Under the pieces are notes generated by a model. That model searched no databases. It saw only the letters and a list, made by a program, of their open reading frames with translations, and had not been told where the DNA came from. 33,393 nt of DNA, from positions 67,797 through 101,189 of the forward strand of contig JAGTQE010000004.1 in the NCBI GenBank assembly GCA_018396635.1. Direction: 5' to 3'. Shown one piece after another: positions 6,724-29,460 of this stretch. The translations under genes and the position numbers were made by a program. Numbering within the stretch: position 1 is the first letter of the stretch; each line of letters opens with the position of its first letter. This DNA is from Candidatus Bathyarchaeota archaeon. GTDB taxonomy: Archaea > Thermoproteota > Bathyarchaeia > Bathyarchaeales > DTEX01.

Positions 6724-8670
6724 TTGATGCCGATTATCGTAGCCATTTTATCTCATCCTATCGCTCGAGCCCCAAAGATTGGAAATAGTTTGGCGAAGGC
6801 TTTATGTGTTATCACATCCTACGCCACGCTTCTAATGTTGCTTAGATTAGCTCAAATAGTGGTGGAGAAGGGGCCAGTTGTAAATTCTTTTCCAATAGCG
6901 TCCTTGCCTCTTGGAGAGCTTGTGTTGACAGTTTATGTCGATGAGCTGGCATTAATTCCCACAGTTTTCTTTGCATTGTTCGCATCTGCCGCAATAACTT
7001 ACTCCGTCAAGTATCTTAGCCCAGAAAACAAGTATCGCCCAGTGCCAAACACCTTTAATAGAGGCTTTTCATTCATGCTGCTTTTTCTAGGCTCATTAAT
7101 AGGATGCTGCTTCTCAGGCAACATGATATTCTTCCTAATCTTCTGGGAGATAACAAGTATCTGCTCATTCTTCCTCGTCGGCTTCTGGCAAGACGATCCC
7201 AAATGCGTAGCAGCCGCCTTTAAAACCTTTATTATGCTGCATATTGGCACATTCGGCTTATTAATTGGCTCAATACTAGCATACCTAACTGTCGGAACAT
7301 GGGAAATTCATGCCTGGAGCCACAGCCTTCCCAATCACCCCATTATGCCTCTAGTGATTTTACTGTTTCTTATTGGACTTTTACCTAAAGCCGTCCAATT
7401 CCCATTACACAGCTGGTTTCCGGATGCAACGGTTACGGCAACTCCTATAATAGTTTATGTTCACAATGGTTTCATATCGGCTCTATACGCTTTCCTGAGG
7501 TTTTTTGGTCAGATATTTGCTCCCTCAATTAGATCCGCAGAGATGCTCCCCGCACTATCCCTGATTTTCGGCAACCCTAGTATTTTGGCATTCATAATGT
7601 CCCTTGTAGGCGCCCTAACATCCATCTTAGCGGCATTCTTCGGATTACTGGAGAATGAAAGCAAAAGGGTTGTAGCGTATTGCGACATCTCCGCGTTGGG
7701 GAGCACGGTTATGATCCTTGGATTTGCCACGTCTCTAGGGTTTGTCGCCGGTTTACTCGGTATGATTTATCATGTTCTTTTCACTGCGCTCATATTTCTG
7801 GCTCTAGGCGGAGCGATATTTCAGGTCGGAAAAACATCGATGGATTTTATGGGAGGATTAAGCAGGTATATGCCGATCACAACCACCATTGGAACCATAG
7901 GAGCCCTTTCTATGGCTGGTTTTCCCTTTCTCGGCTACTTCACAGCCTTATGGCTTGGGATCTACGCCGCGTTAGAATTGAATGCTCTAATATTTATCGT
8001 TTTACTCTTGTTCAGCTCTATTCTAAAAACCGCCGCCATCCTAAGAATGATAAATACTGTTTTCTTCGGCAAAGCCATGGAATATAAGGGAAAGATTACT
8101 GAACCATCTGCGTTAATGCTATTTCCAATGCTTCTTCTCCTAACATGTCTCTTCGTCTTTGGAGCTTATCCTCAACTGCTACTAAACCACCTGGTGATAC
8201 CGGCAGTAAGCCGTTTGCAGCCAGACTCTAAATTAATATTGGTGATGGGCGACATCATCGCAGGGGCCGGTCTCTGGAACCCGCTTCTAGGCACGCTCAT
8301 CTTCCTATTATATTTGGGCTTGGTTGCCACACTAATTTATTTGGCTTTAAAGAGAGGAGCGGTTTATGCGGAAAAGGCTTATGTCAGAAGAGAAGAGACC
8401 TTTAAGCCGTTTATCTGTGGAGAGGACGTGAATCTGCTGGATGAGGTTCGCGCCCGCCATTTCTATCACATCTTCACTAATGTTGTAAAGATTGACGCAA
8501 TCTGTCATGCCCTTAACATTGACAGGTTTTATTACGCGTTGGCGGAAAAATTCTTCGCTTTTTGTAGAGGATTGCTCCGCTTGGATATTCGACAGAAATA
8601 TTTTCCCGCAGTTTTATCCTTCACTCTTGGAGCTTTAATCATGATAATATTAGCGGTTCTGGTGGGTTAA
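6724..8670 (+). CDS. Hydrogenase membrane subunit, NuoL/HyfB-like proton-conducting antiporter family
   Basis: A polytopic protein of 648 residues or slightly more, of the Proton_antipo_M family, with around 16 hydrophobic segments. It should form an ion-translocating channel of the hydrogenase. Family landmarks are Glu142 in FFLIFWEITS (TM5), Lys222 in LLPKAVQFPLHSW (TM7) and His247 in VYVHNG (TM8). The C-terminal extension carries FICGED, typical of HyfB/CooM-type large antiporter subunits. The TM12 position that is usually lysine is Thr354 (HVLFTALIFLA). The frame is open back to 6664, and the only good ribosome-binding site (GGTGGAGG, 6665-6671) faces ATA/ATT codons at 6679-6684. The true start may therefore be upstream, at a non-standard codon, rather than at TTG 6724 or ATG 6727. 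It is followed after two bases by the HyfE-like gene. Confidence 0.88.
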   Translation: MMPIIVAILSHPIARAPKIGNSLAKALCVITSYATLLMLLRLAQIVVEKGPVVNSFPIASLPLGELVLTVYVDELALIPTVFFALFASAAITYSVKYLSPENKYRPVPNTFNRGFSFMLLFLGSLIGCCFSGNMIFFLIFWEITSICSFFLVGFWQDDPKCVAAAFKTFIMLHIGTFGLLIGSILAYLTVGTWEIHAWSHSLPNHPIMPLVILLFLIGLLPKAVQFPLHSWFPDATVTATPIIVYVHNGFISALYAFLRFFGQIFAPSIRSAEMLPALSLIFGNPSILAFIMSLVGALTSILAAFFGLLENESKRVVAYCDISALGSTVMILGFATSLGFVAGLLGMIYHVLFTALIFLALGGAIFQVGKTSMDFMGGLSRYMPITTTIGTIGALSMAGFPFLGYFTALWLGIYAALELNALIFIVLLLFSSILKTAAILRMINTVFFGKAMEYKGKITEPSALMLFPMLLLLTCLFVFGAYPQLLLNHLVIPAVSRLQPDSKLILVMGDIIAGAGLWNPLLGTLIFLLYLGLVATLIYLALKRGAVYAEKAYVRREETFKPFICGEDVNLLDEVRARHFYHIFTNVVKIDAICHALNIDRFYYALAEKFFAFCRGLLRLDIRQKYFPAVLSFTLGALIMIILAVLVG

Positions 8671-8672
8671 TC

Positions 8673-9320
8673 ATGGAAATACTGTCTGCCATAACTTTAG
8701 TGGTTGCAGCGCTCATAACTGCTTTAGGCTGCTTCGCTGAGAGCACCCGTCGAACAATAATACTTCTCTCTGTTCAGGCTATAGCGATAGGCTCCGTTAC
8801 GCTTGTCCGCTGCCTAATCGACCTAATAATTGGATTAAATGTTGAAGCCCTCATACATTTCTTCATCGCCTTCGCAGAGTGGTTTTCAGCGGCAGTTGTC
8901 GTTCCCCTTATACTTTACTGGGGGGTTGTGAAGACTGAGAACGTCGTTGATGCGCCTATAGTCGGGGCGCGAAGGCTAGCTATACTGGTCATATCAACGG
9001 CAATCCTATACATGTTTTTGTGGATTTTTCAGCCCCAAATACTACAAGAAGAAATAGCAACTCTCTCATTTTGTATGCTCATGTTCTCTTTCTCAGTCTT
9101 TCTCATGGTTACTAGGCGAGATTCCCTGAAGATTCTTACTGGGCTAAATATGGCTGAAAACTCCCTTTACCCGCTTCTGGCAGAAATTCCAATAATGCTT
9201 GTACCCTTCATTCTAACCCTAATGATATTTGTAACCGCGATAGGAACATACATAATTGTTGAAGCCTACAGGGATCACGGCACAACGCTAGTTGACCGCT
9301 GGAGGTGGCTGGGCAACTAA
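8673..9320 (+). CDS. Hydrogenase-4 component E-like membrane subunit (NuoK-like C-terminal half)
   Basis: A 215-residue integral membrane protein with six to seven hydrophobic segments, the length of HyfE (about 216). The second half holds KILTGLNMAENSLYPL, which resembles the conserved glutamate-containing TM motif of HyfE and the related NuoK. In complex I-like enzymes this subunit links the antiporter subunits to the catalytic arm. The ATG at 8673 is two bases after the previous stop, and GGTGGG in that gene's end serves as ribosome-binding site. The stop overlaps the next start as TAATG. Confidence in a HyfE-like role comes from size, motif and position between NuoL-like and NuoN-like genes. 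Confidence 0.8.
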   Translation: MEILSAITLVVAALITALGCFAESTRRTIILLSVQAIAIGSVTLVRCLIDLIIGLNVEALIHFFIAFAEWFSAAVVVPLILYWGVVKTENVVDAPIVGARRLAILVISTAILYMFLWIFQPQILQEEIATLSFCMLMFSFSVFLMVTRRDSLKILTGLNMAENSLYPLLAEIPIMLVPFILTLMIFVTAIGTYIIVEAYRDHGTTLVDRWRWLGN

Positions 9321-10798
9321 TGTACTCCCTGCTCCCACTCTTAACACTAATAGTTCCACTCTTCTCCGGGGTCTTATGCCTCTTCACATGCCTATTCAGA
9401 TTCCTAGAGGAGTTTTCGAGAAGGATGTCGAAGATACTGCTGTTGATCAGCGCCGCCTTAAGCCTAGCACCGCCGTTAACAATGATCCCATATTGTGCTG
9501 TGGGCGAGGTTCTAGAGACCACGGGGCTAGGTTTAAGGGCGGACTCCTCAAATATCGCCGCGCTAGTAAGCACAGCTACACTCTTTTTCCTAGTCTCAAT
9601 CTATAACATGGGCGCTGAGAAGGGCGGTCGGCTGAAACCCGGAGTATACAACTTCTTTCTGCTTCTCTTTTTATGCTGCATGTTTGGGCTATTGCTCTCC
9701 TATGATCTATTCGGCATATTTCTATTCGTAGAGTTGGTCATAGGCGTATCAATAATACTTGTCGCCCACAACACGATTAAAGCGGCAACGGAAGCAGCCT
9801 TCAAATACTTGATTATTACCGCTATAAGCGCGCTGTTTGTTTTGATCGGTGTTTTAACCATATATATTCTGACCGGCGAATCGAATATTCTGCATCTGCT
9901 CAGCGACTCTGAGAAGCAGGCAGCGCTAGCTGAGAACCCGCGTCTACTAATGTTCATCGTAGCCTGCTTTATAGTTGGGCTAGGTGCAGACATAGGGCTT
10001 GTCCCCTTCCACGGCTGGCTTCCCGACTGCCTCCCAGCATCCACAATAATCATTAACGGATTCACTGCGATGGAGCCGATCCCCCTAATCCTAGCCCTCC
10101 ATAAGCTGGTTGCCCCACTATACAGAATCTATCCTTCAAATGTTATGCTAGCTTTTATGCTTGGAACAGGATTAATTTCGATGATTTTCGGAGCACTTAT
10201 GGCCTACTCCCAAAAAGACTTCTTTAGGATGGCTGCCTACTGCAGCATAGATGAGTATGGGCACTCGCTCTTCGCCCTGAGCCTACTCTCATCTCTAGAA
10301 ATGCAGAGCTTTATAATCGGACAATTCTACTTAATAAACAGCACGCTGGCAAAGACGGGGCTAATATTGAGCTTAGGTTCAGTCTACTTTAAATCCGGAA
10401 GCTCAGACATGGACTCACTTGGCGGCCTAGCTGAAAAAATGGGTAAGACGGCATTAAGCTACGTGATATGCGCCTTCTCACTGACCGGCATCCCACCGAT
10501 GAGCGGCTTCTACGCGAAACTTCTCTTTTTCAGCGCATCCTACATATTCTTCTATGAGTATGGAAACTCGATGCTAGCAATTCTAATGGTAACTTTAATG
10601 GTCTGCATCTCCATAATCTCATTCGTCTTTTTAACACGCTCATTCCACAGGATCTTTCTCGGTAAGAGTCGAACAAACATTGATGTTAAGAATGATGTAC
10701 CCATGTTAATGTGGCTGCCCACAATTATTTTGGCGATGGCAACGTTGGTTTTTGGGATTCGCCCAGACCTTCTACTAAGGTTTATAAGCCCAGTTTAA
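9320..10798 (+). CDS. Hydrogenase membrane subunit, NuoN/NuoM/HyfF-like
   Basis: A 492-residue polytopic Proton_antipo_M protein with about 14 hydrophobic segments. I chose ATG 9320, which overlaps the preceding TAA, because GGAGGTGG at 9301-9308 is correctly placed. GTG 9305 would lie inside that site. The TM5 glutamate is present (Glu138, FLFVELVIG) and the TM12 lysine is present (Lys345, STLAKTGLIL). The normally invariant TM7 lysine of the PFHxWLPD region is Asp224 (GADIGLVPFHGWLPD), and the TM8 region has Glu252 (FTAMEPIPL) where a lysine or histidine is usual. The protein clearly belongs to the antiporter family, but its charged chain is rearranged, so its ion pumping may be altered. 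It is last in the plus-strand arm and converges on the minus-strand arm. Confidence 0.88.
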   Translation: MYSLLPLLTLIVPLFSGVLCLFTCLFRFLEEFSRRMSKILLLISAALSLAPPLTMIPYCAVGEVLETTGLGLRADSSNIAALVSTATLFFLVSIYNMGAEKGGRLKPGVYNFFLLLFLCCMFGLLLSYDLFGIFLFVELVIGVSIILVAHNTIKAATEAAFKYLIITAISALFVLIGVLTIYILTGESNILHLLSDSEKQAALAENPRLLMFIVACFIVGLGADIGLVPFHGWLPDCLPASTIIINGFTAMEPIPLILALHKLVAPLYRIYPSNVMLAFMLGTGLISMIFGALMAYSQKDFFRMAAYCSIDEYGHSLFALSLLSSLEMQSFIIGQFYLINSTLAKTGLILSLGSVYFKSGSSDMDSLGGLAEKMGKTALSYVICAFSLTGIPPMSGFYAKLLFFSASYIFFYEYGNSMLAILMVTLMVCISIISFVFLTRSFHRIFLGKSRTNIDVKNDVPMLMWLPTIILAMATLVFGIRPDLLLRFISPV

Positions 10799-10806
10799 CC
10801 TAGCAC

Positions 10807-11322
10807 TTAGGCCTCTCTGCTTCTTCTATAGAAAACCCACTCTTTAGACTTAACGTCAAGCCCTAAATCGATCATCAGCCGTTCAATCAACTGTTGCAGG
10901 GCGTATCCACTGCTGCTAACAATCTTTATTAATTGATATTCAGATGTGTAAACGGTATATTGCTCCTCTCCACCAGCCTCTGCGACCACATCTTCCCTCT
11001 GGACAACATTCCCCATTATGTAAACAGATATCTTTGCATCCAAGTACTCTCCTTCATAGATCTTCAGCGTAGAAACCTTCTCTTCAGATTCCTCTACTAT
11101 AACGGGACTTTTGGCCTCCTCATGAAAAACTATTTTCTTATGATTTGCTGGAACTATTTGCCTGATTTCCGAGACGGTTTGCTCATTCTCTTCAATTCTT
11201 CTAAACCCATACTTCTCGATAAGATACTCCTCAAGCAACTTATATTCTGTGTGCCTAAACACAACACCCTTTAACAATAAGACAACAAGCTCACGTGATT
11301 GCTGAGGCAAGATGCGCTTCAA
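10807..11322 (-). CDS. Unrecognised protein at the end of the hydrogenase operon
   Basis: I do not recognise this 171-residue protein. It looks soluble, with no signal peptide or membrane segment. A basic, hydrophobic N-terminal part (to about 60) and a C-terminal alpha/beta part (about 85-171) flank a charged, Glu-rich linker (EEAKSPVIVEESEEKV). No cysteine is present, so it is not an iron-sulphur or nickel-cysteine protein. It is co-directional with, and about 40 nt behind, the ferredoxin subunit gene, so it is probably the last gene of the hydrogenase operon. An assembly, regulatory or stabilising role is possible but unproven. It does not resemble HycH/HyfJ or HypC as far as I can see. 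The start is uncertain: TTG 11322 lies directly on a GAGG, while TTG 11310 would be better spaced. Confidence 0.65.
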   Translation of the reverse strand: MKRILPQQSRELVVLLLKGVVFRHTEYKLLEEYLIEKYGFRRIEENEQTVSEIRQIVPANHKKIVFHEEAKSPVIVEESEEKVSTLKIYEGEYLDAKISVYIMGNVVQREDVVAEAGGEEQYTVYTSEYQLIKIVSSSGYALQQLIERLMIDLGLDVKSKEWVFYRRSREA

Positions 11323-11360
11323 CCTCGGTTAATTCATATATAATGGAAAACTAATAAACT

Positions 11361-11699
11361 TTACTTAACGATAAGCCCATTCTTGTCAAAGGTCACTATC
11401 TCGAACTGTGTACTCATTTTAATCGCTCCTTTCGGACATATTTCAGCGCATTGCCCGCATAAAATGCACCTAGAGATATTAAAGGCTACTTTCCTCTCCT
11501 CCGCTGAAGTTATCACGCCACCGGGACAGACTCTCACGCATAACATGCATCCTATGCATGCGTCCCTATCATAAGTTAGTTTACCTCTAAATCGCTCCGG
11601 GACCGGCACCATCCTCCCCGGCTTAGTAATATATTCTACCGTAACAGGTCTACGAAATAGCGATCTCAAAGTCTCGTAAAGCATCTTTCCAACTCTCAA
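11361..11699 (-). CDS. Hydrogenase ferredoxin-like subunit, two 4Fe-4S clusters (NuoI/HyfH/EchF/CooX type)
   Basis: A 112-residue iron-sulphur protein that relays electrons between ferredoxin and the catalytic subunits. It has two complete CxxCxxCxxxC sets: C48, C51, C54, C58 (CIGCMLCVRVCPGG) and C78, C81, C84, C88 (CILCGQCAEICPKG). Each should hold one [4Fe-4S] cluster. The N-terminal 30 residues have the basic, proline-containing run typical of NuoI-like subunits docking on the membrane. It uses a TTG start at 11699, with GGTGA seven bases upstream overlapping the stop of the NuoH-like gene. Its place directly after the NuoH-like gene matches NuoH-NuoI order. Confidence 0.92.
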   Translation of the reverse strand: MRVGKMLYETLRSLFRRPVTVEYITKPGRMVPVPERFRGKLTYDRDACIGCMLCVRVCPGGVITSAEERKVAFNISRCILCGQCAEICPKGAIKMSTQFEIVTFDKNGLIVK

Positions 11700-11710
11700 G
11701 ACGCTTTCAC

Positions 11711-12661
11711 CTACAGTCCCGCTGCTGACAAAATGATGGATGAAAGCGATAATGTTAATGGAACCATCCAGTAGAATTTAAGAGCTTGACCTATTTTTAA
11801 TCTAGCTAGGATTGTACGCGGCACGGTCATCGTGGTAAACATGATAAGTAGGGCTGTAGTTAGGCACAAAGATAAAGATATGCCGGAGTTTAGCGGAGCA
11901 TTTTCCCATAATAGTGATGGAATATAAAGGAAGACAATTGATGCGAGCAGCGTTAGAGCAAAGTTTGACGCCGCTTTAGCTATCTTCGCTAGCGCTAAGT
12001 ATGGCCCACAATACTCGACGAGGAGACCATATATTATCTCGGTTTTCGCCTCCGGTATATCGAAGGGAATAGCTGACGATGCGGCTGGCATACATAATAG
12101 GAACGCTGCCGCTGCGAGGCTCATGCTTGGGCGAGATGCCGCTAACGGCAAACCTAAGTTAGCCTGAAACTTTATGATTCTATCGATCGCTAGAGATGGA
12201 GTCGATCCAAACGCTACAGATATCACGGCGATAAACATTGGGACCTCATAAGCTATCATCATGCTCATCTTTCTAGAGAAGCCTATTGCACTATAAGGGT
12301 TACCTGAAGCCGAGCCCCCAACCATCAAAGCTATGGATGACATTGCGAGCAGATACATAACCACTATCAAGTCGCCAATCATACTTAACCCGAAAAGAAT
12401 GCCAGATAGCAGTATGGACGCCCCCAGAAGTGAGACAGCAGCGGCAATCATAGGCATAATCTCAAACACTCTCACCGAGGCTGTTAGAGGAATAACTCTT
12501 CCCTTATTAAATAGCTTAATTAAATCATAAAAGGGTTGGATGACTGGCGGCCCGATTCTCTTCTGCATTCTAGCATGAAGTTTCCTATCTATGCCTTCAA
12601 AGAGAAGACTTATTAATAGAACAGCTGGAAAAGAAATGATTAGGGCTATTGCCGCATTCAC
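11711..12661 (-). CDS. Hydrogenase membrane anchor subunit, NuoH-like (EchB/HyfC/CooK)
   Basis: A 316-residue integral membrane protein with about eight hydrophobic segments. It anchors the catalytic subunits and forms the junction with the ion channel. Family signatures are RKLHARMQKRIGPP (about 26-39), equivalent to the ER-x-R-x-Q-x-R-x-GP of NuoH. IPFDIPEAKTEIIYG in the middle is the conserved acidic loop facing the catalytic arm. It starts with GTG, which overlaps the large-subunit stop as GTGA (12658-12661). GGTGAG within the preceding gene is the ribosome-binding site, so the two are translationally coupled. The gene order small-large-NuoH-NuoI is tightly conserved in group 4 hydrogenases. 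Confidence 0.92.
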   Translation of the reverse strand: MNAAIALIISFPAVLLISLLFEGIDRKLHARMQKRIGPPVIQPFYDLIKLFNKGRVIPLTASVRVFEIMPMIAAAVSLLGASILLSGILFGLSMIGDLIVVMYLLAMSSIALMVGGSASGNPYSAIGFSRKMSMMIAYEVPMFIAVISVAFGSTPSLAIDRIIKFQANLGLPLAASRPSMSLAAAAFLLCMPAASSAIPFDIPEAKTEIIYGLLVEYCGPYLALAKIAKAASNFALTLLASIVFLYIPSLLWENAPLNSGISLSLCLTTALLIMFTTMTVPRTILARLKIGQALKFYWMVPLTLSLSSIILSAAGL

Positions 12662-13878
12662 TTTTCTCTCACCACACGCCTTAAGGCATCCAGGCTAACA
12701 ACCTTGGATTCCCCGCTCCTCTGATCGACGATTGTTACTCGATTTGTGCATGAGAGGCATGGATCTATGGAGGCCACGATAACTGGTATATCTGCAATCT
12801 CACACCCTAACAGCATAGATTTCAACCCTATTAGATTAGAAAATGTTGGAGTCCGCACTTTTAGTCGTCTTAAACCCCCCTTCCCATCGGTCTTAACAAA
12901 ATAAAAGAGTTCACCTCTCGGAGCCTCAACTAGAGAGACCGCCTCACCCTCAGGAATTCTCCTCATAAGCCTAAGAACGTTCTCTTCTGGTCGGATGGGC
13001 CCTTCTGGAAGTTTTTCTAAAATCGCTCTAATTATATTTATTGACTCAAAAATCTCCAGAACCCGAACTTCGATTCTAGCGTGAACGTCGCCGTCTCTTC
13101 TCGTAATTACTGAGAAGTTTCCCTTTAGATCATTATAGGCGGCGTAGGGGTGATCCCTTCTAACATCGATGTCTACTCCAGAGCCCCTCGCTGTAGGCCC
13201 AACCACACATAACTTTAGTGCCTCGCTATAGTCTAGAACCCCCAAACCACAAATTCTCTTCTCAACGGTTCCATCCGTGAAAATATCGCGAACATATTTG
13301 ACAGCTTTCTCCATCTCCTTCATGCAAGAGTTTATTTCACTCGCTATTTGAGGTGTTAAATTCCATCTAACTCCACCTATGGTATTCATTGCATGGTGGA
13401 TTCGGTTACCAGTGATCTTCTCGAATAGATCGAGAATTTTCTCCCTCACATGCCATATGAACATGAAAAGTGTATCAAACCCAATCTCGTAAGCCATAAC
13501 ACCAAGTAGGAGAAGGTGGCTGTGAATTCTTTCCATTTCAAAGATCAGCGTCCTAAGATAGAGGGCCCGTTCTGAGGGAGCTATGCCGCCAATCTCCTCT
13601 AACGCTTGGATGAAGCATGTTGTGTGGCTGTGGGAGCAGATTCCGCATATACGCTCAATTAAGTAAAGCGTCTGAATCAAGTTGCGGCCTTCGGCGAGGG
13701 CTTCTATACCCCTATGAACATGACCTAGAACCATGTCCACATCGATAACCTCCTCTCCTCTCACAGAAACCCTTAATGAAACAGGCTCCTTAAGAGCCGG
13801 GTGAACCGGCCCGAAGGGTATGCGCAGCCTAGCATACTCCACCTCGACTTCCTTCTCCACATTACGTTCAACAACCAT
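12658..13878 (-). CDS. Group 4 NiFe hydrogenase large (catalytic) subunit
   Basis: A 406-residue NiFe hydrogenase large subunit (HycE/HyfG/CooH/EchE family) that catalyses H2 formation or oxidation. Both nickel-binding cysteine pairs are intact: C78 and C81 in ERICGICSHSH, and C374 and C377 in DPCLSCTNR. It is therefore a hydrogenase and not a complex I NuoD, which lacks these cysteines. About 26 residues follow Arg380 (VTIVDQRSGESKVV...), resembling the tail removed from HycE by the endopeptidase HycI. A maturation protease should therefore exist elsewhere in the genome; none is in this window. The start at 13878 follows GGTGAGATG, which contains the stop of the small-subunit gene. The NuoC-like domain is not fused but encoded at 6048-6482. 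Confidence 0.95.
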   Translation of the reverse strand: MVVERNVEKEVEVEYARLRIPFGPVHPALKEPVSLRVSVRGEEVIDVDMVLGHVHRGIEALAEGRNLIQTLYLIERICGICSHSHTTCFIQALEEIGGIAPSERALYLRTLIFEMERIHSHLLLLGVMAYEIGFDTLFMFIWHVREKILDLFEKITGNRIHHAMNTIGGVRWNLTPQIASEINSCMKEMEKAVKYVRDIFTDGTVEKRICGLGVLDYSEALKLCVVGPTARGSGVDIDVRRDHPYAAYNDLKGNFSVITRRDGDVHARIEVRVLEIFESINIIRAILEKLPEGPIRPEENVLRLMRRIPEGEAVSLVEAPRGELFYFVKTDGKGGLRRLKVRTPTFSNLIGLKSMLLGCEIADIPVIVASIDPCLSCTNRVTIVDQRSGESKVVSLDALRRVVREK

Positions 13879-13889
13879 CGCAGATCATC

Positions 13890-14312
13890 TCACCTAAACT
13901 TGCTCATAACGGCTGTAATAATCCCGCTAGCTATCGCCTCCGGCCTGGGCGGACACCCCACAATATATGTATCTACTGGAATAATTCTATCAACCGGCCC
14001 CTCAACCATCTCGCTGCCGAGAAACGGGCTTCCTGAAGAGGCGCATGTACCCACGGCAACGACAACTTTAGGCTCAGGAATCTGCTCATAAACTCTAATT
14101 AAGCGAGGTAACATCTGGCGTGTAACCGGTCCTGTAACCAACAATACATCAGCGTGGCGCGGCGAACCAACGAGCAAACAGCCAAAACGTTCAAGATCGT
14201 AACGCGGAGTAAAGGCAGCAACTATCTCAATATCGCAGCCATTACACGAACCAGTGTTAAGATGAAATATCCAGGGAGACTTTATGCGACCCCTCGAAAC
14301 AATCCTGAACAT
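13890..14312 (-). CDS. Group 4 NiFe hydrogenase small subunit (NuoB/HyfI/EchC/CooL type)
   Basis: A 140-residue small subunit holding the proximal [4Fe-4S] cluster next to the NiFe site. The four expected cysteines are present: C23 and C26 (GSCNGCDIE), C90 (GTCASSG) and C120 (VGCPPRPE). The short length without extra C-terminal clusters is typical of group 4 and NuoB, not of uptake hydrogenases. There is no twin-arginine signal, so the complex faces the cytoplasm. It is the first gene of the minus-strand arm. The ATG at 14312 has no ribosome-binding site and the transcript is likely leaderless or nearly so, from the AT-rich box at 14346-14355. Confidence 0.94.
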   Translation of the reverse strand: MFRIVSRGRIKSPWIFHLNTGSCNGCDIEIVAAFTPRYDLERFGCLLVGSPRHADVLLVTGPVTRQMLPRLIRVYEQIPEPKVVVAVGTCASSGSPFLGSEMVEGPVDRIIPVDTYIVGCPPRPEAIASGIITAVMSKFR

Positions 14313-14377: not shown

Positions 14378-14599
14378 CATCCGGATGAAACACATTTTCT
14401 TAAAAGTTATTCACGGCGGGGTTGTTGTTCTCATAATTGGGATAGAATCATGAGAGGAATAGATATTAGTGTGGGGTAAGCGCACCTTAATCTCAGCGTA
14501 CTAGTCTCAGGCGATATATACCCTTCCCTGTCAAAAGCTCTTAACTTTTGGTTGGAGGCCGCCGCCGGGATTTGAACCCGGCCTCCGGGCTCCACAGGC

Positions 14600-14629
14600 T
14601 TATACCACCAGCATGATTATGCGTGGTGT
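14600..14629 (-). other. tRNA-His intron in the anticodon stem (position 29/30), 30 nt
   Basis: Removing these 30 bases restores a perfect 5-bp anticodon stem. The junctions form a bulge-helix-bulge. Exon GUAC (14635-14632) pairs with intron GUAU (14605-14602), and it is flanked by 3-nt bulges GG^A and AA^G cut after the second base. An internal CACCA/UGGUG helix closes the intron. The usual 37/38 site is uninterrupted. Confidence 0.85.
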
Positions 14630-14644
14630 CCGTACGCTACCAGG

Positions 14645-14669
14645 CTTCGCGGCTCTAGTTTTTGAGCCT
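14645..14669 (-). other. tRNA-His intron in the D-loop (about position 15/16), 25 nt
   Basis: Removal gives a standard D-arm. The intron holds a GGCUC/GAGCC hairpin (14668-14664 with 14655-14651). It fits a bulge-helix-bulge with bulges AG^A and AG^C and a central helix of three pairs plus one A-A mismatch. AG occurs at both junctions, so the cut can shift by up to two bases without changing the mature product. Confidence 0.75.
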
Positions 14670-14713
14670 CTACGTTACGGCGGCCACGCCATATATTCTT
14701 TTCACATCTTTAA

Positions 14714-14721
14714 CTTTTAAG
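14714..14721 (-). promoter_or_regulatory. TATA box of the tRNA-His gene
   Basis: CTTAAAAG on the minus strand is centred about 33 nt before the mature 5' end. This places transcription start a few bases upstream of G-1. Confidence 0.5.
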
Positions 14722-21483: not shown

Positions 21484-22557
21484 GTGGTTAACCTGAGAGG
21501 ATGTGAATCTACTAGCTCGGAAGTTAGGGTTGTGCTGGTTGGAGTTGGAGCAATGGGCTGCGAAATAGCTAAGCTCCTGCTAAGGAAGAAGGGCGTAAGA
21601 GTTGTTGGCGCTGTTGACCCAGCCCCCGACAAAGCTGGAAGGGACATAGGTGAGGTCATTGGCCTTAACAGGAAGCTTGGAATAACAATACTTAAAGATA
21701 TTGGAGATCTGAATGTTGAAGCCGACGTAGCGATACATGCAACCACGTCATTCCTTAATAGGGCTTATCCGCAGATAATCGAGTTAATTAAGCGAGGGTT
21801 TAACGTAATATCAACATGTGAGGAATTATCCTACCCATTCATTGTGAGCGAAGAATTATCAAAGGATATCGACGCCCTGGCTAAAAAATATGGTGTGACT
21901 GTTCTGGGGACTGGAATAAACCCCGGCTTTCTAATGGATACTCTAGTGATAGTGCTCTCAACGGCGTGTCAAGACATCAAGCGCATAAGCGTGGAAAGGG
22001 TTATTGACGCCGCTAAACGTAGACTGCCATTCCAAATTAAGATTGGGGCCGGGTTGAGCCCTGAAGAGTTTATGTTAAAGGTTTCTAGGGGTGATATAAC
22101 CGGGCATGTAGGCTTAAAGCAGTCGATAGCGATGATAGCTGATGCATTAGGCTTAAAGCTTGATAGGATTTACGAAGAACCGATAGCGCCCATAATAGCG
22201 GAGAAGGAGGTAAAAAGCGCTTTCATAACTGTGAAGCCCGGCTTAGTTGCAGGTTTACATCAACTCGCCTATGGAGCTATTGGCGGCGAGAACATGATAA
22301 CTCTTTCTTTTAAGGCTTATATTGGTGCGGCAGAGGAATACGATTCTATAATAATTGACGGCACACCTCCGATAATCGAAAAGATATCGCCATGCATACA
22401 CGGGGACATTGGAACAGCAGCGGTCATAGTAAATCTAATACCTAAAGTAATCAACGCGCCCTCCGGACTGAAAACCATGAAAGACATTCAATTACCCTCA
22501 GCTATCCTTGGAGACATGAAACTATTTATAGCAAAGAGATCTAAAAGTCTCTTCTGA
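21484..22557 (+). CDS. DapB-like NAD(P)-dependent oxidoreductase (2,4-diaminopentanoate dehydrogenase-like)
   Basis: A 357-residue Rossmann oxidoreductase. VVLVGVGAMGCEIAK (about 16-30) is the dinucleotide-binding loop. IHATTSFL and the later GTGINPGFLMDTL follow the pattern of the dihydrodipicolinate reductase-like group that includes 2,4-diaminopentanoate dehydrogenase. The length fits that group and is longer than true DapB, so lysine biosynthesis is unlikely. The start is uncertain: GAGGTG at 21481-21486 overlaps GTG 21484 and is better spaced for CTG 21493 than for the GTG itself. It sits directly before an acetamidase/formamidase homologue, suggesting amino or amide compound metabolism. 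The substrate is not known. Confidence 0.75.
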   Translation: MVNLRGCESTSSEVRVVLVGVGAMGCEIAKLLLRKKGVRVVGAVDPAPDKAGRDIGEVIGLNRKLGITILKDIGDLNVEADVAIHATTSFLNRAYPQIIELIKRGFNVISTCEELSYPFIVSEELSKDIDALAKKYGVTVLGTGINPGFLMDTLVIVLSTACQDIKRISVERVIDAAKRRLPFQIKIGAGLSPEEFMLKVSRGDITGHVGLKQSIAMIADALGLKLDRIYEEPIAPIIAEKEVKSAFITVKPGLVAGLHQLAYGAIGGENMITLSFKAYIGAAEEYDSIIIDGTPPIIEKISPCIHGDIGTAAVIVNLIPKVINAPSGLKTMKDIQLPSAILGDMKLFIAKRSKSLF

Positions 22558-27492: not shown

Positions 27493-29460
27493 TTAAATTA
27501 TATGTGTGGCGTAAATCAGCGCAGCTGTCCCAATCAAGTTTATAAATATGTCTAATGATGGTCCAGCAGCATCCTTCAGTGGGTCGCCGACCGTGTCGCC
27601 TATAATCGACGCCATGTAGGTTGACTCCTCCCTTCTCCTTCCACTGCCTTCAATGCGCTTCTTAGCGTTGTCCCATGCTGCACCGCTTATACACATGTTT
27701 AATGAGAGCGGTAATGTTGTGGCTAGGTTCCCGACAATAAATCCCCCTATGGCTTCTGGGCCTAAAAGCAGCCCAATGGCGAATGGAGCTACAATCGATA
27801 TTATTGCTGGATAGAACATTCCTTTTAAAGCAGCTCTCGAACTTATATTTATACACTCTATGTAGCCAGGCTTATGTTTATTCCCCCTCGGCTTCAAATC
27901 TTCCCTGATATGCCTTCTAATGGCCTTGATCATTATGTGGGCAGCTTCGCTGACAGCTTTTATTACCAGAGAGCAGAGGACAAATGATAGGGAGCCGCCG
28001 ATAAGCATTCCAGCTACCACAACCGGGTTTACTATGTCAATGGCATTCAGTCTAGCGGCGCTCAGGTAGGCTGAGAATATAGCTACCTGCGCCAACGCTG
28101 AGGTCCCTATCGCATAAACCTTGCATGCTGCCTTCGTTGTGTTGCCTATGGAATCGAGCATATCCATTGTTCTGCGAAGATCTGCATTAGCTTTTGACAT
28201 CGTGATTAAACCATTCGCATTATCAACTATGGGTCCATATGCTGAGAGGGCTACAAAGGTGGCCATTATGGATAGGAAGCCGATTGCTGAGAGCGTTATG
28301 CCATATAATCCTTCAAAACGATACGCTAAGAAGACTACCGCTGAAAGCGTTAGCGTTGGCATGAAGACTGCCTCTAGACCCGTAGATAAACCTGTCAAGA
28401 TGTTTACCGCTGGTCCAGAGCTCGATGCGGACACTATCTTCTTAATGATCTTCCCTCTAGGTGAAGTGTAGTAATTAGTTATGTGGGCTAGTAGCATTAT
28501 AGCGATTATCCCCACCAGAGTTGCATAGAATGCCTTGAGGTTGCCGAATAGAATCTGCGATAATATGGCTGAGAAAAGGGATGCGAAGAACGCTGAGATA
28601 TACACTCCCAAGAAAATATGTCTCCTATGATTCTTACTCAAGACCTTAAATAAGAACAGACCAACCATTGAAGAGATTAAACCAAAACCCAAGGCTAACA
28701 TCGGGTATGTTAAGCCCGCGGCTCCGCGTACCAGTGCTCCAAGCATCATTGCTGCAATAAGTGTGCAGACATAGGATTGGAATACGTCTGAGCCTGTGCC
28801 AGCAACATCACCAACATTGTCACCGACTTGATCTGCTATTACTGCTGGGTTGCGTGGATCATCTTCCGGCAGACCTATTTCAACCTTACCTACAAGATCG
28901 GCGCTTATATCAGCAGCCTTAGTATATATTCCCCCGCCAACGCGTGCAAATAGGCCAACTAGGCTCGCTCCAAACCCTAAACCGACAAGGTTCTCCGGGT
29001 TTTCGTATCCTGAGGCAGAAAATAGTAGGTGTAGTGCGCTAACAATAAAGAGGCCAAAGCCAGTTAACAATAAGCCAGTAGAGATTCCGCCCTCAAGCGC
29101 CATTAGGAAGGCTTTATGGAAGCTCTCTTTAGCCGCCTCAGCTGTTCTAGAATTTGTATTAACCGCTATTAGGGTTCCCAGGTAGGCTGAGAGTGCTGAG
29201 AAGAATGATCCAACAGAGAAGGTTATGGCTGTAAATAGATTGAAGAGCAGCCCCATCACCACAGCTAAGACTACACTAAATATTAAGACTAAGAGAAATT
29301 GATGGTTTAGATAGGCTACGGCTCCATCCTTAATAATCTTTGATAGTTCGAGTATCCTCTCAGATATGTTACGCTTGCGGAGAATATTGTAGACTATGAA
29401 GACTGAGAAGACTTGAGCTACAACGCTCATCACTAAAACAACCAACATAAGCAGGATCAA
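27493..29460 (-). CDS. hppA: Membrane-bound proton-translocating pyrophosphatase
   Basis: A 655-residue integral membrane pyrophosphatase with about 16 membrane segments that couples PPi hydrolysis to ion pumping. The substrate site is present in ADISADLVGKVEIGLPEDD (about 183-201), IADQVGDNVGDVAG and, near the end, GDTVGDPLKDAAGPS. The first of these is usually DVGADLVGKVE, so Gly is replaced by Ser. The K+-dependence determinant is Lys443 in GNTTKAACKVYAIG, the residue of K+-independent H+-pumping enzymes; K+-dependent forms have Ala there. The following CKV replaces the usual TKG or GKG. The TTG start at 29460 has GGTG just upstream. It converges on the PhoU-TrkA_C gene and faces away from the MATE gene across a 202-nt divergent region. 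Confidence 0.95.
   Translation of the reverse strand: MILLMLVVLVMSVVAQVFSVFIVYNILRKRNISERILELSKIIKDGAVAYLNHQFLLVLIFSVVLAVVMGLLFNLFTAITFSVGSFFSALSAYLGTLIAVNTNSRTAEAAKESFHKAFLMALEGGISTGLLLTGFGLFIVSALHLLFSASGYENPENLVGLGFGASLVGLFARVGGGIYTKAADISADLVGKVEIGLPEDDPRNPAVIADQVGDNVGDVAGTGSDVFQSYVCTLIAAMMLGALVRGAAGLTYPMLALGFGLISSMVGLFLFKVLSKNHRRHIFLGVYISAFFASLFSAILSQILFGNLKAFYATLVGIIAIMLLAHITNYYTSPRGKIIKKIVSASSSGPAVNILTGLSTGLEAVFMPTLTLSAVVFLAYRFEGLYGITLSAIGFLSIMATFVALSAYGPIVDNANGLITMSKANADLRRTMDMLDSIGNTTKAACKVYAIGTSALAQVAIFSAYLSAARLNAIDIVNPVVVAGMLIGGSLSFVLCSLVIKAVSEAAHIMIKAIRRHIREDLKPRGNKHKPGYIECINISSRAALKGMFYPAIISIVAPFAIGLLLGPEAIGGFIVGNLATTLPLSLNMCISGAAWDNAKKRIEGSGRRREESTYMASIIGDTVGDPLKDAAGPSLDIFINLIGTAALIYATHII

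Follow-up and report, generated by a model that had tools for sequence, protein, structure and literature searches.

How a complete histidine tRNA could be produced from a gene that is interrupted twice, at positions away from the common 37/38 site, and by which enzymes, is the question raised by a locus on the minus strand of the window (the whole 33,393-nt stretch of DNA that was analysed) from an uncultured bathyarchaeon. We confirmed that the locus is a tRNA-His(GUG) gene with two introns at unusual positions. Read on the minus strand, it runs G-1, GCCGCCG, UA, ACGU, AG, a first insert of 25 nt, CCUGGUAGCGUACGG, a second insert of 30 nt, and then GC-CUGUGGA-GCCCG-GAGG-CCGGG-UUCAAAU-CCCGG-CGGCGGC-C. 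Both G-1 and C73 are encoded, flanking an acceptor stem of GCCGCCG and CGGCGGC; the T-arm is complete (CCGGG UUCAAAU CCCGG), and the 7-nt anticodon loop CU-GUG-GA, with U33 and a purine at 37, is closed by CGGGC/GCCCG once intron 2 is removed. G-1 opposite C73 is encoded here and in all relatives with the 5' end at the expected place. Without both inserts, a 74-nt tRNA with the GUG anticodon, the G-1:C73 pair and a full cloverleaf is obtained, and ARAGORN names this spliced 74-mer tRNA-His(gtg), in agreement with the initial annotation, which had identified the gene by the same anticodon and pair. The introns lie at 15/16 and 29/30, the 37/38 site is intact, and the three exons are collinear within 129 nt. 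A split or permuted tRNA was ruled out, as the exons are adjacent and in order.

Table. Features of the tRNA-His(GUG) locus in the window, listed in the order of transcription.
Feature	Position	Strand	Remarks
Possible TATA-like element CTTAAAAG (tentative), -29 to -36 from G-1	14714..14721	-	read off upstream sequence
tRNA-His(GUG) precursor gene, G-1 (14685) to C73 (14557)	14557..14685	-	
Exon 1, G-1 to G15, GGCCGCCGUAACGUAG	14670..14685	-	exon sequence common to intron-free relatives
BHB-1 central helix, 5' strand ACGU, positions 10-13	14672..14675	-	also the 5' D-stem strand
Intron 1, 25 nt, at 15/16, AGGCUCAAAAACUAGAGCCGCGAAG	14645..14669	-	
BHB-1 central helix, 3' strand GCGA, inside intron 1	14647..14650	-	3/4 pairs, outer one an A-A mismatch
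Exon 2, C16 to G29, CCUGGUAGCGUACGG	14630..14644	-	
BHB-2 central helix, 5' strand GUAC, positions 24-27	14632..14635	-	
Intron 2, 30 nt, at 29/30, ACACCACGCAUAAUCAUGCUGGUGGUAUAA	14600..14629	-	
BHB-2 central helix, 3' strand GUAU, inside intron 2	14602..14605	-	
Exon 3, G30 to C73	14557..14599	-	anticodon GUG, variable loop GAGG, T-arm; no 37/38 intron

Very probably, this sole tRNA-His gene found in the genome encodes a precursor with two bulge-helix-bulge (BHB)-type introns outside 37/38 that would be cut by EndA and joined by RtcB; judging from the sequence comparisons, both introns are almost certainly removed by the cell's tRNA-splicing enzyme. The decisive support for predicting two introns is comparative, namely four intron states, near-identical exons and the retention of the helices. 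A validated tRNA-His pattern matched in 93 of 151 genomes belonging to the order, almost always at a tRNA-His, and once in the window's genome, and a scan of named genomes with a tRNA-His pattern led mostly to Candidatus Bathyarchaeota MAGs. Candidatus Bathyarchaeota is placed in the Thermoproteota by GTDB, and the lineage clue to Thermoproteota that had been drawn from the introns held. Near-identical exons were found among the relatives with no intron (e.g., L115, L117, L119, and L120 from the same family, L076, and L163), with the 15/16 intron only (L075, L104, L108, L112, L113, L114, L116, and L118), with the 29/30 intron only (L164, Candidatus Hecatella orcuttiae), and with both (the window, L105, L106, L107, L109, L110, L111, L121, and L148). 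The intron-free relatives (e.g., L115, L117, L119, and L120) read UAACGUAG-UCUGGUAGCGUACAGGC, whereas the window reads UAACGUAG-(intron)-CCUGGUAGCGUACGG-(intron)-GC, and the exon continuity is precise at both sites. Across the copies, the 15/16 intron is 18-32 nt and the 29/30 intron 18-30 nt long, and the sequences diverge. A different 18-nt D-loop intron, near 20/21, was seen in the tRNA-His of another family (L074 in G028). Another intact tRNA-His in the genome, which the initial annotation had named as evidence that would count against its model, was not found, nor was any other GUG tRNA, by pattern or T-arm scan. Two tRNA-His genes (L104 and L105) were observed in the G008 MAG; L105 adjoins purL, as in G004, and L104 resembles the G006 copy and lies on a contig of 6.5 kb in a MAG with a listed contamination of 5%. 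We rejected a duplication on these grounds, and the contig with L104 probably stems from contamination by a G006-like strain.

The relatives also bear on the origin of the introns. About 18 of the roughly 38 tRNA genes detected in this genome are interrupted, frequently by two introns and in many cases at sites other than 37/38 (as counted by a heuristic parser on an inventory made from pattern and family searches plus fetched stretches), so tRNA-His is one instance of a genome-wide pattern. Well-scoring examples outside 37/38 include tRNA-Asn (8/9 and 30/31), Arg-UCU (9/10, together with 37/38), Arg-CCG (29/30), Leu-UAA (22/23), and Val-UAC (25/26 in two genes, also together with 37/38); the intron-bearing loci of this genome (G000) include, e.g., L171, L173, L172, L180, L029, and L182. 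TRNA-like loci with inserts of 53-80 nt were also seen in L176, L179, L023 (+ strand), and L030, with intron structure and isotype beyond the parser, and the one in L176 adjoins a 5S rRNA gene. Transposition of tRNA introns has been proposed for Thermoproteales (Fujishima 2010, cited in PMC4090602), and a recent arrival of the BHB introns by this route would suit both this abundance, including the other 29/30 introns in tRNA-Arg, and the differing presence and absence among close relatives. Such an origin, although compatible with the splicing model, is unlikely: the best intron pair across the tRNAs of this genome scored 9, and the median maximum of shuffled introns was 10, so the introns of different tRNAs are not alike and give no sign of transposition. 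The 15/16 intron, moreover, occupies the same site and neighbourhood in three families, which suggests age and repeated loss. Divergent sugar-isomerase and MocA-type oxidoreductase neighbours accompany tRNA-His in genomes of these families (f1, f3, and f5), which is indicative that at least those copies are orthologous. In a tree from EndA alpha, EndA beta, and RtcB, intron-free copies are nested in a family whose other members generally have the 15/16 intron, and the G006 copy lacking the 29/30 intron falls inside a genus whose other scorable members have both; some deep nodes are weak (22-60% support), and for this reason we claim no number of gains or losses. Most simply, the 15/16 intron would be old and would have been lost cleanly more than once.

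Under the two-intron splicing model, the tRNA-His precursor would measure ~129 nt without its leader and trailer, and the exon strand two bases upstream of each 5' cut would pair with four consecutive bases close to the 3' end of that intron. This pairing would leave two 3-nt bulges, each cut after its second base, predicted as AG^A and AG^C for intron 1 (BHB-1) and GG^A and AA^G for intron 2 (BHB-2). A heterotetrameric (alpha-beta)2 EndA with a crenarchaeal-loop lysine may then cut both introns, the 3' tRNA ligase RtcB would join the exons to a 74-nt tRNA-His already carrying G-1, and the D-arm would fold after splicing. Subunit assembly, cutting, ligation, and this order of events are predictions from the sequences. 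The points against the model are modest folding of the isolated precursor, the lack of an exon-side outer helix, and the failure to find RtcB in the MAG.

Around intron 2, the bulges GGA and AAG lie on opposite strands with the 4-bp central helix GUAC/GUAU between them, and all four pairs are kept in 10/10 copies. The description of this motif as textbook in the initial annotation goes too far, as the helix includes one G-U pair and the exon-side outer helix is missing. Around intron 1, the bulges AGA and AGC are present and three of the four central pairs form in the window copy, with the one mismatch that had been noticed traced to the outer A-A pair; all four pairs form in L104, L106, L108, and L110. 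Central pairs 2-4 of BHB-1 and the first two pairs of its intron helix are kept in 17/17 copies, and the intron-2 helix has two-sided changes among relatives (C-G/U-A, A-U/G-C). Central helices and first intron-helix pairs are thereby kept in essentially every intron copy despite the divergent sequences, though these pair counts lean towards BHB, as our parser required some pairing when choosing the cuts; the exon continuity with intron-free genes is independent of that choice. The exon-side outer helix is absent in both motifs (the next outer pairs, by inspection, are A9-C and C23-C31), so both belong to the relaxed (HBh'-like) type, which is known among non-canonical introns (PMC4090602). 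When the isolated precursor was folded at 37 C, the central helix had a probability of ~0.38 for BHB-1 and ~0.11 for BHB-2 in the window, and near zero in several relatives, which suggests that the motifs must form co-transcriptionally or with the help of proteins. BHB-1 occupies bases 10-13 and BHB-2 bases 24-27, and the D-stem (10-13 with 22-25) therefore cannot coexist with the motifs, whereas the two motifs are compatible with each other by pairing; the GCG(N) of intron 1 imitates the 3' D-stem strand GCGU. Folding of the D-arm, as this pairing suggests, probably follows excision.

To place the introns without reference to the first model, we used a BHB-aware parser that anchors on T-arm and acceptor, allows at most two introns whose junctions resemble a BHB, and gives each resulting cloverleaf a score. 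Its best solution, reached blind, has the same introns as the initial annotation (25 nt at 15/16 and 30 nt at 29/30; 37/38 intact), with a score of 42.6 against 30.9 for the next different solution. Dinucleotide-preserving shuffles of the core (n=400) reached a maximum of 34.4, and base-shuffled genome loci gave no solution scoring 37 or above. An alternative cut of intron 1 (23 nt, after position 16) ties in score, and cuts shifted one or two bases upstream yield an identical mature sequence; the 25-nt intron was chosen because both cuts then fall in 3-nt bulges and the D-loop has the length found in intron-free relatives. ARAGORN found no tRNA in the window and did not call the unspliced gene with introns either forbidden or allowed; with introns allowed, tRNA-His was also called when intron 1 alone was removed. 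The Rfam tRNA model RF00005 does not recover the gene in a whole-genome search, even with the cut-off relaxed to E<=10, and Rfam matches to mascRNA and tmRNA were dismissed as sub-threshold T-arm matches. The expectation that a finder allowing only 37/38 introns would miss the gene is thus correct for ARAGORN and RF00005 but does not extend beyond such simpler finders, as tRNAscan-SE 2.0 in archaeal mode searches for non-canonical introns by default (PMC8450103). Simple tRNA annotation of such genomes will report tRNA-His as missing. It is very improbable that EndA removes only intron 2 and the D-loop insert stays as an expanded D-loop. Some organelles have tRNAs with large insertions, and the A-A mismatch of BHB-1, with three central pairs only in most copies, would agree with this reading; however, the D-loop of intron-free relatives is a normal 9 nt, the GCG of a retained insert would compete with the D-stem, the bulges and helix are kept in 17/17 copies though the insert varies from 18 to 32 nt and is otherwise divergent, and ARAGORN makes no call when only intron 2 is removed.

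Removal of both introns also calls for suitable enzymes, and the genome carries two PF01974 (EndA-type) genes. EndA alpha is closest to the Aeropyrum pernix EndA (3p1z_B, E 9e-45) and to 2cv8, with near full-length alignment; the Tyr/His/Lys triad is kept in all copies, and a lysine found in all aligned relatives aligns with A. pernix K44 (GIPKPKS vs DVEKPRG). K44 belongs to a crenarchaea-specific loop and is needed for broad specificity (PMC6379350). Triad and loop lysine of alpha are thus as in the A. pernix (alpha-beta)2 enzyme (3p1z/3ajv; PMC6379350), unlike EndA beta, whose best single-domain match is the Methanocaldococcus alpha4 enzyme (1a79) and whose catalytic His is replaced in 11/11 aligned copies. 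The suggested check of the genome for a heterotetrameric endonuclease gave the expected outcome: of the two genes, one is catalytic and the other lacks the catalytic His, and the pair fits a broad-specificity (alpha-beta)2 enzyme with predicted assembly. A search of this MAG for RtcB found none, although its completeness is estimated at 99% and many of its tRNA genes have introns. The ligase is present in 87/101 genomes of the order and in 8/10 genus-mates, making an assembly gap likelier than a real absence. A decayed pseudogene with chance insertions, the functional gene being missing from the assembly, would be in keeping with a 35-contig MAG that apparently lacks RtcB, but is exceedingly improbable given that the exons are intact at every position, with all stem pairs, G-1, and C73 in place, that at least 8 other genomes with intact exons have both insertions at the same sites, and that the scans gave no other GUG tRNA.

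The arrangement is rare but known, and what is new is a well-supported bathyarchaeal case. Thermoproteales and other Crenarchaeota are already known to have 29/30 introns and tRNAs with more than one intron (PMC4090602, PMC4033280, PMC8450103), and non-canonical introns there were described by Marck and Grosjean (2003) and Sugahara (2007, 2008), as reviewed in PMC4090602 and PMC4033280. Like those of Thermoproteales, the present BHB introns are short, outside 37/38, relaxed, several per gene, with 3-nt bulges around a central helix and an (alpha-beta)2 endonuclease (here predicted from genes); the lineage differs, being Bathyarchaeia, as does the lack of any sign of intron transposition in the genome. 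The open-ended list of positions in PMC4090602 includes 29/30 and does not name 15/16. The split tRNA-His(GUG) of Nanoarchaeum equitans is likewise a disrupted tRNA-His with a relaxed BHB and an (alpha-beta)2 enzyme (here predicted) (PMC4090602), but its two pieces are joined in trans at 37/38, whereas the three exons here are ordered within 129 nt. Among the open-licence papers searched, none was found that deals specifically with the tRNA introns of Bathyarchaeia. The case adds Bathyarchaeia to the lineages whose tRNAs carry several introns at non-canonical positions, and agrees with the proposal that broad-specificity EndA and tRNA introns evolved together. Its main use lies in the four intron states on one set of relatives: copies with none, either, or both introns form a natural series for the gain and loss of BHB introns and for their independent cutting. 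Conceivably, and we put this forward tentatively as somewhat short of an even chance, a bathyarchaeal clade may have independently gained a Thermoproteales-like load of non-canonical introns without detectable transposition, of which tRNA-His would be the clearest case, with an old 15/16 intron, a 29/30 intron, both motifs sequestering D-stem strands so that the D-arm waits for splicing, and each intron lost cleanly several times.

The proteins of the window match ordinary prokaryotic genes in Pfam and NCBIfam. A cluster of NuoL/N-like, NuoH-like, NuoB-like, and large-subunit genes was seen at 6724-14312, and the large subunit keeps the RICGIC and DPCLSC motifs typical of group 4 [NiFe] hydrogenase. 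A protein near 2,4-diaminopentanoate dehydrogenase (Ord), under the curated cut-off, is encoded at 21484-22557, and a membrane-bound (Na+ or H+) pyrophosphatase gene lies at 27493-29460.
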